This document shows, piece after piece, positions 38,345 through 46,627 of a DNA stretch of 64,000 bases (position 1 is its first letter; every line of letters begins with the position of its first letter). Location: the NCBI RefSeq assembly GCF_003258515.1, contig NZ_QGEH01000006.1, positions 1 to 64,000 on the forward strand, read 5' to 3'. The translations under genes were made by a program, and so were the position numbers. Under the pieces are notes generated by a model. That model searched no databases and had not been told where the DNA came from. It saw only the letters and a list, made by a program, of their open reading frames with translations. The stretch comes from Marinobacter bohaiensis. Its GTDB lineage: Bacteria > Pseudomonadota > Gammaproteobacteria > Pseudomonadales > Oleiphilaceae.

Positions 38345-39883
38345 ATGCGGCAGTTGTCCGAATTGGATGCGTCCTTTCTCTACCTGGAATCCGATACCGC
38401 GCCCATGCACATCGGAGGGATCTATATTTTCGACGGTCAATCCTGTGACCAGCCGCTGACGTTCAGCCGATTCGTATCTTACCTGCGCAGCCGGCTACAC
38501 CTGGTGCCTTTCTTCCGTGAGAAGCTGAAGCAGGTACCACTCAGGCTCGGCGCCCCCTACTGGGTCGACGACGCCAACTTCTCCATCGAACGCCACCTGG
38601 CCTACGTCAAGATGGGCGCCCGCAACGACCAGGACAGCCTGCTGGCACTGGCCTCGCGCATCATGCAGGAGCCGCTCAAACGCGACCGCCCGCTGTGGCA
38701 CATCACCTTCGTCGATGGGCTGGCTGCGACCGATGCGGAAACCGGCAGCGAATCCGCCAGCGGCTTTGCCCTGATCGTGCGCCTGCACCATGCGGCGATC
38801 GATGCCTTCAGCGGCGAGGAAATCATGGGCAAGCTGCTTGAGTACAGCGCCACCCCGGAGCCCATACGTCCACCCCAGCCCTGGTACCCGAAAGCGGCCC
38901 CCAGCGAACGGCGCGCCCTGCTGCAGGTGGGAAGCAACCTGGCCCGAAAGCCATTCCGGATCGCCTCGCTGGCCGCCCACGCGGCGGAAGCCGCCACCCG
39001 CGGCGTCATCCAGCGCCAACTGAGCAAACTGCCCCTGCCACTCCCGCTGTTCTCGGCCCCCCATTCGCCGTTCAACCGCCAGATCACCGCCAACCGCCAG
39101 GTACTGGGAAAAACGCTGTCTCTGTCGCGGCTCAAGGGCGTCAAGACCAGCATCGGGGATGTCACTCTCAACGACGTGGTACTGGGCCTCTGCGCGGAAG
39201 TCCTGCGCCGCTACATAGCGGAGCACGACGGTGACCTCAAACGCCCGCTGGTGGCGATGACCCCGGTGTCGGTGCGTTCGAAAAGCCTGCGCAGCCCCAC
39301 CGGCAACCAGATGTCGGCGATGCTGCTGAACCTGGCCACCGACATTCCGTGCCCGGCCTCAAGGATACGCCGCATCCACTGGAACGCAGTGGCGTCCGAA
39401 CCCTACCAGGAAGCCATCGCCGCCGATCGCCTGACGGAACTCGTGCCATCCACCATGCTGGCCCTGTCGGCCCGCCTGTACGGCGAGCTGCAACTGGCGC
39501 AGCGCTACCGTCCGGTGTTCAACGTGCCGATCACCAACGTACCCGGTCCCCAGGTGCCGATGTATCTGCAGGGCGCCAAGCTGGCGCACCAGTACAACCT
39601 GGCGCCGCTGTTCGACAGCATGGGACTGGTGATCGTCGCGGTCAGCTACGAAGGTCAGCTCACCCTGAATTTCACCCTGTGTCCCGATGTGGTCCCCGAC
39701 GGCGAACGCCTGGTCGACCTGGTGGAGGAGAGTCTGCAGGCGATCGAGGAAGCCGCGGAGTCCATGCCAGCCGATCAACCACCGGACCTGCCCGGCGAGG
39801 GACACGGTTCGACGCTGCTGGACGACACCCTCAACCTGATCGAAAGCACGCTGCAGAAATCGATCAAACGGCTGCGAGGATGA
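38345..39883 (+). CDS. Wax ester synthase / acyl-CoA:diacylglycerol acyltransferase (WS/DGAT)
   Basis: Esterifies fatty alcohols or diacylglycerol with acyl-CoA to make storage wax esters or triacylglycerol. The 512 residues carry family features: LSELDASFLYLES start, PLWHITFVDGL, SPFNRQITANR and TNVPGPQVPMYLQGAKL. The catalytic HHxxxDG motif reads HHAAIDA (residues 148-154), so the final Gly is Ala; both His and the Asp are kept. AGGGAG precedes the ATG. It stands alone, with a bidirectional terminator after it. Marinobacter species usually carry several such genes, so this may be one paralogue. Confidence 0.92.
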   Translation: MRQLSELDASFLYLESDTAPMHIGGIYIFDGQSCDQPLTFSRFVSYLRSRLHLVPFFREKLKQVPLRLGAPYWVDDANFSIERHLAYVKMGARNDQDSLLALASRIMQEPLKRDRPLWHITFVDGLAATDAETGSESASGFALIVRLHHAAIDAFSGEEIMGKLLEYSATPEPIRPPQPWYPKAAPSERRALLQVGSNLARKPFRIASLAAHAAEAATRGVIQRQLSKLPLPLPLFSAPHSPFNRQITANRQVLGKTLSLSRLKGVKTSIGDVTLNDVVLGLCAEVLRRYIAEHDGDLKRPLVAMTPVSVRSKSLRSPTGNQMSAMLLNLATDIPCPASRIRRIHWNAVASEPYQEAIAADRLTELVPSTMLALSARLYGELQLAQRYRPVFNVPITNVPGPQVPMYLQGAKLAHQYNLAPLFDSMGLVIVAVSYEGQLTLNFTLCPDVVPDGERLVDLVEESLQAIEEAAESMPADQPPDLPGEGHGSTLLDDTLNLIESTLQKSIKRLRG

Positions 39884-42759: not shown

Positions 42760-43242
42760 CTAGCGCGGACGGGTTTCCGCGAGCCGCAGGCGCCGGCTGA
42801 GTTTGTCCAGAAGGCTGTTGACGAACTTGTGGCCCTCGGTACCGCCAAAACGCTTGGCCAGCTCGATCCCTTCGTTGATCACCACCCGGTATGGCACGTC
42901 GATCCGATGCTTGAGCTCGTAGGTGCCCAGACGCACGATGGCCAGCTCGATCGGGTCCACTTCGCCCAGGGGACGATCCAGGTAGGGCTCGAACGTGCGG
43001 TCCAGGTCGTCCTGCTCCCGGTGGACGCCGCGCAACAGATCCCGGAAATAGGCGGAATCCACTTTGGACATGTCGTTGTCCACCATGAACTCCGCTTCGA
43101 TGGCACTGATGGAGCTCTTGGAGTAATGGCGGTGGTAGAGCGCCTGCATCGCCAGAACGCGGGCGCGGCGACGTTCACCGGCCTTGGGAGCTCCCGGAGT
43201 GGCCGCACCTTCGACCGGAGTACCTTCTTGGTCGCTCATCAT
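42760..43242 (-). CDS. nusB: Transcription antitermination factor NusB
   Basis: Partner of NusE in rRNA antitermination, binding boxA RNA. The 160-residue all-helical protein has an N-terminal extension of about 24 residues before [15 protein letters not shown], then [18 protein letters not shown] near the end, as in NusB. The start overlaps the ribH stop (ATGA), the coupling common to ribH-nusB pairs. Confidence 0.95.
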
Positions 43243-43715
43243 TCACCTATCTTCTTGAACAGGCTGACCATCTCCAGCGCGGTGACGGCCGCCTCGGCGC
43301 CTTTGTTGCCGGCCTTGGTGCCGGAGCGCTCGATGGCCTGCTCGATGGAGTCCACGGTCAGGACACCGAAGGCCACGGGCACATTGGTGTCCAGGCTCAC
43401 TGCGCCCAGACCGCTGGAGGCTTCGCCGGCCACATAGTCAAAGTGCGGCGTACCACCGCGAATCACCGCGCCCAGGGCAATGATGGCGTCGTATTCGCCG
43501 GTCTCGGCGACACGCTTGACGGCCAGCGGCATCTCGTAGGCACCGGGCACACGCACGACGGTGATATCGTCCTCGGCAATGCCGTAACGACGCAGGGTAT
43601 CGATCGCCCCGTCCACCAGACTCTCAACGACGAAAGCGTTGAACCGGCCGACGACAAGCGCATAGCGACCACTGCACTGGGTAAAATCCCCTTCCAGCGT
43701 CTTGATTCCAGACAT
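43239..43715 (-). CDS. ribH: 6,7-dimethyl-8-ribityllumazine synthase
   Basis: Makes lumazine from the RibD pathway product and the 3,4-dihydroxy-2-butanone 4-phosphate from RibBX. The 158-residue product has [27 protein letters not shown] and [16 protein letters not shown], all diagnostic. I chose the ATG at 43715, with AGGAG upstream, instead of the frame's first start at 43799. It lies 43 bases after the ribBX gene. Confidence 0.96.
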
Positions 43716-43758
43716 CTCTGACTCCTGTTTCCGGACCCGTCTCGACGGACGCCGGCGA

Positions 43759-44871
43759 TTATGGGTTAAACGGTAGATACTCCACCACTTCCAGGTCAAA
43801 ACCGGAAATGGCGGAGAACTTGATCGGCGCGCTCAGCAGGCGCATCTTGCCCACGCCCAGGTCCCGCAGGATCTGGGACCCGGTACCGACCGTGAAGTAG
43901 ACACCGGAACTGCCCTTGGCGGCAGGCCGCGCGCCCTCGTCGAAGAATTCGTGGATCCGGTCATCCAGATTGTAGCTGTCCTCGCCGCTGTTCAGGATGA
44001 CGACCACACCGCGCCCTTCGCTGCCCACCTTTTCCAGGGCGCGATGCAGCGGCCAGCTGTGAGAACCCGTGCGACGGGCGCCCAGCAGGTCACGCAGGGT
44101 ATCGGTAATATGCACCCGCACCAATACCGGATCATCCTGACCCACGTCACCCATGGTCAGCGCCAGATGAGTGCCGCCGTGGATGGTGTCGCGATACGTA
44201 CGCAGCCGGAACACGCCATATTCGGTGTCCAGATCATGCTCCTCGATGCACTCGATGGTGCGCTCATGCAGCGTGCGGTAGTGGATCAGGTCGGCGATGG
44301 TGCCGATCTTGAGGTCATGCTCGGCGGCGAACGTCTCGAGGTCCTCACGACGGGCCATGGTGCCGTCGTCGTTCATCACCTCACAGATCACACCGGCCGG
44401 CTCGGCGCCGGCCAGTGACGCCAGGTCGCAGGACGCCTCGGTGTGCCCGGCCCGGCTGAGCACCCCGCCGGGATCGCTCATCAGCGGGAAGATATGACCC
44501 GGCTGGACGATGTCGGTGGGTTGGGCATCGCGAGCCACCGCGGCGAGCACCGTACGTGCACGGTCGGCGGCGGAAATACCGGTGGACACACCCTCGGCGG
44601 CCTCGATGGAGACGGTGAACTTGGTACCGAAGCCAGAGTCGTTCTGGCGCACCATCAACGGCAGCTGCAACTGCTCGCAGCGCTGGCGTGTCATCGGCAT
44701 GCAGATCAGGCCGCGGGCGTAACGCGCCATGAAGTTGATCGCCTCGGGCGTGCAGAACTCCGCTGCCATGACGATGTCGCCCTCGTTCTCGCGATCCTCG
44801 TCGTCCATCAGGATCACCATCTTGCCCTGACGGATGTCCTCGATGATTTCTTCGATCGTGTTCAGTGCCAT
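43759..44871 (-). CDS. ribBA: 3,4-dihydroxy-2-butanone 4-phosphate synthase with degenerate GTP cyclohydrolase II domain (RibBX type)
   Basis: The N-terminal half (about 1-200) is an intact Rib[11 protein letters not shown], and [13 protein letters not shown] with its His. The C-terminal half (about 205-370) has the GTP cyclohydrolase II fold, but the zinc cysteines expected in SECLTGD and RCDCG are absent. The corresponding stretch reads [12 protein letters not shown], and there is no Cys at all in this domain. Such RibBX hybrids without cyclohydrolase activity are known in Proteobacteria. A separate ribA is therefore expected elsewhere. Start at 44871 chosen from the family N-terminus MALNTIEEI. 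Confidence 0.93.
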
Positions 44872-44953
44872 AAGACATTGCACCCTTGATTAAAATGACA
44901 GGCCGCCCTTCGAATGACCGGCCTCGTCCTGAACTTGCCGCCGCCCGATGCCG

Positions 44954-46096
44954 TCAGGCGGACGCTGTATCCGGTACCAGTATAAGCCGCTGGTCGTCGC
45001 CAACCTGACGGCGATCGAGTACGCGCCAGTGCTTCCGGTCCGCCATCCGGTCGATGGGCAGGGTCACGGTAGGCCGCCCCTCACTGCCAAGGAACACCGG
45101 CGCCTGATACAGCCAGAACTCGTCCACCAGGCCTCCGGCCACGAAACTGCCGGCAAGCCGGGGGCCGGCTTCCACCAGCACGTCGTTCACGCCTTCTCCG
45201 GCCAGCCATCCACTCAGCGCCGACAACGCCATGCCGCTGTCTTCGACGGGCAATCCGTGCAGGCGTGCACCGGCGGCGGACAGGGCTTCGGCACGGTCGC
45301 TGTCGAGCTGCGCCGGATCGCACAGAATCCAGACCTCGCCGGTGCTCAGGATCCGGGCTCCCGGCGGCGTCTTCAGGGACGGGTCCAGGATCACCCGTCG
45401 GGGCTGCGCGCCCGGTGCCACTGCGTCGCCCAGCGCCCCCATGTCGTCCGGGCGCACGGTCAGCGAGGGATCGTCCGCCAGCACCGTTCCCACGCCGGTA
45501 ACAATGGCCCCACTCATCGCCCGCAGGCGCTGGACGTCGCGTCGCGCCGCCGCCCCGGTGACCCACTGGCTTTCACCGGAGGCCATGGCCGTGCGGCCAT
45601 CCAGGCTGGCGGCCACCTTGACCCGGATGAACGGTCGCTGCCGGCGCATGCGCTGCAGGTATCCCGGGTTCAGCGATTCGGCGGCGTCGGCCAGCACACC
45701 TTCGACAACCTCAATGCCGGCCTGGCGCAGGCGCTGCAGCCCTCGCCCCGCCACGGCCGGGTTGGGATCGGTCATGGCCACCACCACCCGGGCGACCCCT
45801 GCGGTCGCCAGTGCGTCGGCGCAGGGCGGTGTGCGGCCGTGGTGGCTGCAGGGCTCCAGGGTGACGTAAGCGGTCGCGCCCCGCGCCGCATCGCCAGCCG
45901 CCTGCAAGGCATACACTTCGGCATGGGGCTCACCGGCCCGTTCGTGACAGCCTTCCCCAACCACCTGGCCGTCACGGGCAATAACGCAACCGACACGGGG
46001 ATTAGGGTGGGTCGAATAACGGCCTTTCCAGGCCAGGCGGATGGCCCGCGCCATCATCTCGGCGTCGCTCGGGGCCGGGCTCGCTGTTCTACTCAA
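44954..46096 (-). CDS. ribD: Bifunctional riboflavin deaminase/reductase
   Basis: Second and third steps from GTP to riboflavin. The 380-residue protein has a zinc deaminase domain with GEPHAEVYAL and PCSHHGRTPPC, and a C-terminal reductase domain from about residue 150. The start is a TTG at 46096, supported by GAAGG nine bases upstream and the 12-base gap to nrdR; the first ATG is 13 codons later. Riboflavin synthase (ribE) is usually next, but here ribBX follows after only 82 bases. Confidence 0.94.
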   Translation of the reverse strand: MSRTASPAPSDAEMMARAIRLAWKGRYSTHPNPRVGCVIARDGQVVGEGCHERAGEPHAEVYALQAAGDAARGATAYVTLEPCSHHGRTPPCADALATAGVARVVVAMTDPNPAVAGRGLQRLRQAGIEVVEGVLADAAESLNPGYLQRMRRQRPFIRVKVAASLDGRTAMASGESQWVTGAAARRDVQRLRAMSGAIVTGVGTVLADDPSLTVRPDDMGALGDAVAPGAQPRRVILDPSLKTPPGARILSTGEVWILCDPAQLDSDRAEALSAAGARLHGLPVEDSGMALSALSGWLAGEGVNDVLVEAGPRLAGSFVAGGLVDEFWLYQAPVFLGSEGRPTVTLPIDRMADRKHWRVLDRRQVGDDQRLILVPDTASA

Positions 46097-46108: not shown

Positions 46109-46627
46109 TCAGTCCTTGGATTTCGACGGCGCGGTCAGGGCCTTGGCCACATCCACCGGGTCGGCGTTGTCGCCCATGTGCACGGTCAGGCGCTCGATCT
46201 CTTCCTTGAATTCGTTGATGTCCTGAAAACTGCGGTAGACCGACGCAAAGCGCACAAAGGCCACCTGGTCGAGCTGGCGCAGCTCGGTCATCACTTCCTC
46301 GCCCAGCTCCATGGACTTCACTTCCCGCTCGCCGCGGGAACGCAGCCGGAACTTGATCCGGTTCAGCGACGCCTCGATTTCCTCGATGCTGACCGGACGC
46401 TTTTCCAGCGCCTTCATGATGCCCGAGCGCAATTTGTCCTCGTCGAAGGGTTGCCGGGTGCCGTCCTGCTTGACGACCCGCGGCAACACCAGTTCCGCCG
46501 ACTCGAAGGTGGTGAAGCGTTCCTTGCACGACAGGCACTCACGGCGCCGCCGCACCTGGTCGCCATCGGCCACCAGTCGCGAGTCGATCACCTTGGTATC
46601 TGCCTCACCGCAAAAAGGACAATGCAT
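46109..46627 (-). CDS. nrdR: Transcriptional repressor NrdR
   Basis: Zinc-ribbon and ATP-cone repressor of ribonucleotide reductase genes. The 172 residues begin [17 protein letters not shown] with the zinc ribbon completed by CLSCKERF, then the ATP cone from about residue 47 ([16 protein letters not shown]). The length is slightly above the usual 150-160 because of a C-terminal tail. It is followed by ribD, the widespread arrangement. Confidence 0.96.

Follow-up and report, generated by a model that had tools for sequence, protein, structure and literature searches.

In the 64,000 nucleotides of Marinobacter bohaiensis DNA analysed here (the window), ribD and ribBX lie side by side in a rib cluster (Table 1), which raises the question of what has become of the riboflavin synthase gene ribE. 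Only 82 bases separate the end of ribD from the ATG of ribBX, or 70 bases if an alternative GTG start at 44883 is used, and an operonic RibE1, that is, a gene between ribD and ribBX, is absent from the window. The initial annotation had pointed out this absence together with the lack of any lumazine-binding repeat protein, which agrees with a whole-genome search in which no lumazine-binding domain (PF00677) was found in the window. It had supposed that ribE was either moved or replaced. The evidence below makes it very likely that, instead, this lineage dropped the operonic ribE1 and depends on a second copy of older origin, ribE2, and that this is an ordinary arrangement common to close relatives.

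Table 1. Positions of rib genes and related features. Positions without a contig or locus name are those of the window.
Feature	Position	Strand	Remarks
nrdR-like ORF	46109-46627	-	upstream of ribD; named by reading of the ORF
ribD	44954-46096	-	deaminase + reductase; PF00383 + PF01872
ribD-ribBX junction	44872-44953		82 bases; position of ribE1 in relatives that retain it
ribBX	43759-44871	-	ATG start at 44871; DHBP synthase fused to GCH II-like domain; PF00926 + PF00925
ribH (lumazine synthase)	~43239-43715	-	PF00885; internal ATG of ORF 43239-43799 chosen as start
nusB-like ORF	42760-43242	-	next gene of the cluster; named by reading of the ORF
Wax ester synthase/diacylglycerol acyltransferase-like ORF	38345-39883	+	resemblance by eye
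Stand-alone RibA	C3:41453		retains SECLTGD and RCDC
Isolated ribE (ribE2)	G000:C1:1740925-1741470; L003:8860-9537	-	two PF00677 stretches
Sole FMN riboswitch found in the genome	G000:C1:147461-147611; L249:6462-6612	-	precedes second, divergent lumazine synthase
Second RibBX-like gene	G000:C5:63436-64500; L066:1492-2661	-	GCH II cysteines absent
Second RibD_C match	G000:C1:1914890-1915396	-	330 aa frame
FMN riboswitch in rib cluster of G055	G055:C1:254775-254940; L269	-	between ribD and ribE1
Third RibE-like protein of G009	G009:C120:60298-61455; L169		long branch in RibE tree

RibBX of the window has its closest solved match in 6mnz_A. It includes a full DHBP synthase domain and a GCH II-like domain devoid of the SECLTGD/RCDC zinc/catalytic cysteines, which the stand-alone RibA of the same genome has; the label ribBX in the initial annotation is therefore appropriate.

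In the whole-genome search, two PF00677 stretches were found, both in a single protein encoded on contig C1, and the genome thus has one intact two-domain RibE. Among solved structures, this protein best matches 1i8d, the riboflavin synthase of E. coli (E 1.2e-65), and its residues M1, F2, T3, G4, I5, V6, S41 and H102 are the same as those of the E. coli enzyme. F2 is critical for riboflavin synthase, and S41 and H102 are important (PMC10012899, in part); conservation of these three residues is that of the RibC/RibE2 type. An apparent mismatch with E. coli at raw position 185 (S versus D) was traced to a one-residue alignment offset, with the D one place earlier. RibE2 is probably the active synthase. 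Its gene stands by itself: it faces a convergent methyltransferase gene (PF05175; read as rlmG-like), and the divergent gene upstream of it has no Pfam match.

That ribE was replaced, either by horizontal acquisition of another riboflavin synthase or by a non-homologous enzyme, is a very improbable account of this gene. It would fit the finding that the enzyme kept in this genome is only distantly related to its operonic paralogs: in the best tblastn segments (L147-L246), identity to the window genome's own RibE is 29-43% for operonic copies and 43-80% for isolated copies. However, the C1 protein has the usual two lumazine-binding stretches of an ordinary RibE, and its position in the RibE tree, with isolated copies from the same genus and family, and its conserved neighbourhood (see below) make a recent acquisition unneeded.

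The positions of RibE, RibD and RibB were compared in the same 58 genomes, 37 from the family of the window (f1) and 21 from other families of the order. Here, ribE is called isolated when it is not beside ribD or ribB; the RibE counts are those of the matches listed, with the third PF00677 match of G047 left out, and G045 and G049 were scored from coordinates alone. Within the family, 21 genomes have isolated ribE only, 15 have both copies, none has an operonic copy only, and one lacks a RibE match (G010, 540 contigs, 94% complete). Thus, every family genome with a RibE match (36 of 37) has an isolated copy, including G009, which has two, and G027, in which it is a fragment at a contig end. 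G009 also encodes a third RibE-like protein (Table 1). All six genomes of the genus, including that of the window, are isolated-only. The initial annotation had held that ribE elsewhere in relatives would make this an ordinary lineage arrangement, and this is the case in 5/5 same-genus relatives. Among genomes of other families, ribE is beside ribD or ribB in 17/21, five of which have an isolated copy too, and 4/21 are isolated-only.

The length of the ribD-ribBX junction parallels this distribution. In the five same-genus genomes, the gap is 45-65 bases, so that the short junction is common to all of them and that of the window is slightly longer; in all 20 isolated-only family genomes besides that of the window, these five included, it is 5-162 bases, and in the 15 with ribE in place it is 673-914 bases (data for the gap from ribD or ribE to ribB exclude G039, G040, G044, G046, G047 and G053). 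Named loci were also collected by a scan with the RibBX of the window and scored at the rib locus. Among the best 80 of at least 591 stretches, 57 have a ribE match and 23 have none. The latter include all 14 Marinobacter loci among these best 80 (L067-L080; gap 52-76 bases); the other nine belong to Halomonas or Vreelandella (seven), Marinospirillum (one) and an unclassified MAG (one), and a Mangrovitalea locus in the same best 80 (L081) has ribE. The named loci and the 58 genomes probably overlap in part, and therefore their counts are not independent. A misassembly that dropped ribE1 at the junction is hardly credible, as nothing was found in its favour and the junction is free of ribE in 5/5 same-genus genomes as well as in 14/14 Marinobacter loci of the best 80 of at least 591 stretches.

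The relationship between operonic and isolated copies was analysed in a RibE tree of 78 rows, built by a careful method with the contig-end fragment of G027 left out. A branch with 100/100 support separates the 32 operonic rows (beside ribD or ribB) from E. coli RibC and the 45 isolated rows. The RibE of the window genome clusters with the isolated copies of its own genus, on the side of E. coli RibC and away from operonic RibE1, although the exact place of E. coli RibC among the isolated rows is weakly supported. Three terminal branches of the tree are long, and the program gave a warning of long branches meeting at G041. Judged from this tree, the split between operonic and isolated RibE is an old paralogous one.

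These results bear on the idea of relocation, in which the operonic ribE would have been physically moved out in this lineage to become the isolated gene. An operon without ribE and exactly one RibE protein elsewhere are what such relocation predicts, and the part of the initial supposition that placed a riboflavin synthase gene elsewhere in the genome is borne out. However, the isolated gene falls in the other paralog clade, and a tree constrained to unite the six sequences of the genus with the family's 15 operonic ones was rejected (lnL 225.7 worse, p-AU 5e-46). An earlier, less specific constraint asked only for all 32 operonic rows and the six genus rows to share one side of a branch. It was not rejected (p-AU 0.228), but it lends no support to relocation because it is also satisfied by genus rows that branch first among the isolated copies. 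The groups of both clade tests were named after the tree had been seen.

Gene order provides further evidence against relocation. Five genes around the ribE of the window genome were used as queries, and the sample of isolated-only family genomes comprised 14 of the 20 others (G017, G025, G026, G030, G035 and G036 left out). An opposite-strand hypothetical gene is located at most 2.2 kb upstream of ribE2 in 14/15 family genomes that retain ribE1, the exception being G013, and the same gene is found within that distance upstream of ribE2 in 11/14 of the isolated-only genomes sampled. Of the three others, G011 and G014 retain the tetR neighbour alone near ribE2 and G007 has no query neighbour; in G013 and the outgroup G037, each of which has both copies, none of the five neighbour genes was found in the stretch taken. 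The conserved neighbourhood in genomes retaining ribE1 indicates that, in this family, the loss of ribE1 came after ribE2 was established at its site. As the isolated gene occupies this same place while the operonic copy is still present, relocation is very unlikely.

The operonic state of ribE was also mapped on a host tree, a quick tree of the two operon genes (RibD+RibB) for the 50 of 58 genomes with both genes in the fetched stretch. At least seven changes are required (five forced by starred branches), at least four of them among rows of the family, which is not a single clade on this tree. Such counts do not polarise gain versus loss. Still, because ribE is beside ribD or ribB in most genomes of the other families, its absence here is most simply explained by loss, and repeated loss is the simplest reading of the changes, which we infer to be losses.

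Thus, for the dropping of ribE1 with reliance on ribE2, the following course would apply. An ancestor of the family would have had two riboflavin synthase genes, one in the rib operon (ribE1) and one elsewhere, the divergent ribE2 of the E. coli RibC type. Loss of ribE1 in the lineage of the window would then have brought ribD next to ribBX, and this loss would have been tolerated as ribE2 already supplied the activity. The present pathway would run from RibA (C3) through RibD, RibBX and RibH of the window cluster to RibE2 (C1).

Several additional rib genes and FMN riboswitches were observed. The initial annotation had suggested looking for an FMN riboswitch next to any isolated ribE; at the Rfam gathering score, none was found near isolated ribE in the window genome (L001, L003) or in three of the five same-genus relatives (L251-L253). 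The sole riboswitch found in the genome is associated with a second lumazine synthase, which has 28% identity to RibH of the window. A second RibH match is present in 6/58 genomes, with a riboswitch just upstream in 6/6; both are present in 4/6 genomes of the genus. In G055, an FMN riboswitch is located within the rib cluster, and in G009, G023, G028, G033 and G043 one precedes an extra ribB. Another RibBX-like gene also occurs in the genome; it is 60% identical to that of the window and is adjoined by regulator-like and NUDIX-like ORFs (by reading). The five same-genus genomes each have only one DHBP synthase match. A second RibD_C match occurs in the window genome and in G002-G005, not in G001. 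The window also includes an ORF that by eye resembles a wax ester synthase/diacylglycerol acyltransferase (Table 1).

The missing operonic ribE corresponds to no gap in the pathway, and there is no new enzyme to seek. With the isolated copy kept and the operonic copy absent in several lineages, these genomes are a small, clean case of an operon losing one of two paralogs, and they caution that an operonic riboflavin synthase need not be the one on which the cell depends. Loss of operonic ribE in Marinobacter is undescribed in the literature searched, at the level of titles and the starts of abstracts.

In E. coli, the rib genes are dispersed and the riboflavin synthase gene is located outside a rib operon. 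E. coli RibC (1i8d) shares with the RibE of the window genome its side of the tree and the key residues; in contrast to E. coli, ribD, ribBX and ribH of the window genome are still clustered.

The kind of arrangement is known, and the ribE1/ribE2 pair is in print (PMC10012899). According to part of this source, RibBX of Aeromonas salmonicida has no GCH II activity, ribE1 is operonic and ribE2 is 33% identical to ribE1; Shewanella oneidensis and Pseudomonas putida have similar arrangements (PMC10012899, in part). Single deletion of either ribE causes no riboflavin auxotrophy in A. salmonicida, and therefore tolerance of ribE1 loss has a precedent; however, virulence in fish is abolished by deletion of ribE1 but not of ribE2, indicating that the two genes are not equivalent everywhere (PMC10012899, in part). 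One speculative and rather unlikely extension is that RibE1 and RibE2 are non-interchangeable in the family of the window, with RibE2 for housekeeping and RibE1 for extra flavin demand (e.g., secretion), the latter being repeatedly lost when that demand ends; if so, the ribD-ribBX junction would be a genomic marker of the switch. Because the asymmetry in A. salmonicida is reversed, the findings reported for it are consistent with non-interchangeability, though not with RibE2 as the main enzyme in that organism (PMC10012899). Like the genome of the window, A. salmonicida has RibBX in the operon, a stand-alone ribA and a monocistronic ribE2 (PMC10012899, in part). The two differ in that Aeromonas has an extra ribB, whereas the window genome carries a further RibBX-like gene and a further RibH, and in that Aeromonas retains both ribE genes, whereas the genus of the window has kept ribE2 without ribE1 (for Aeromonas, PMC10012899, in part).
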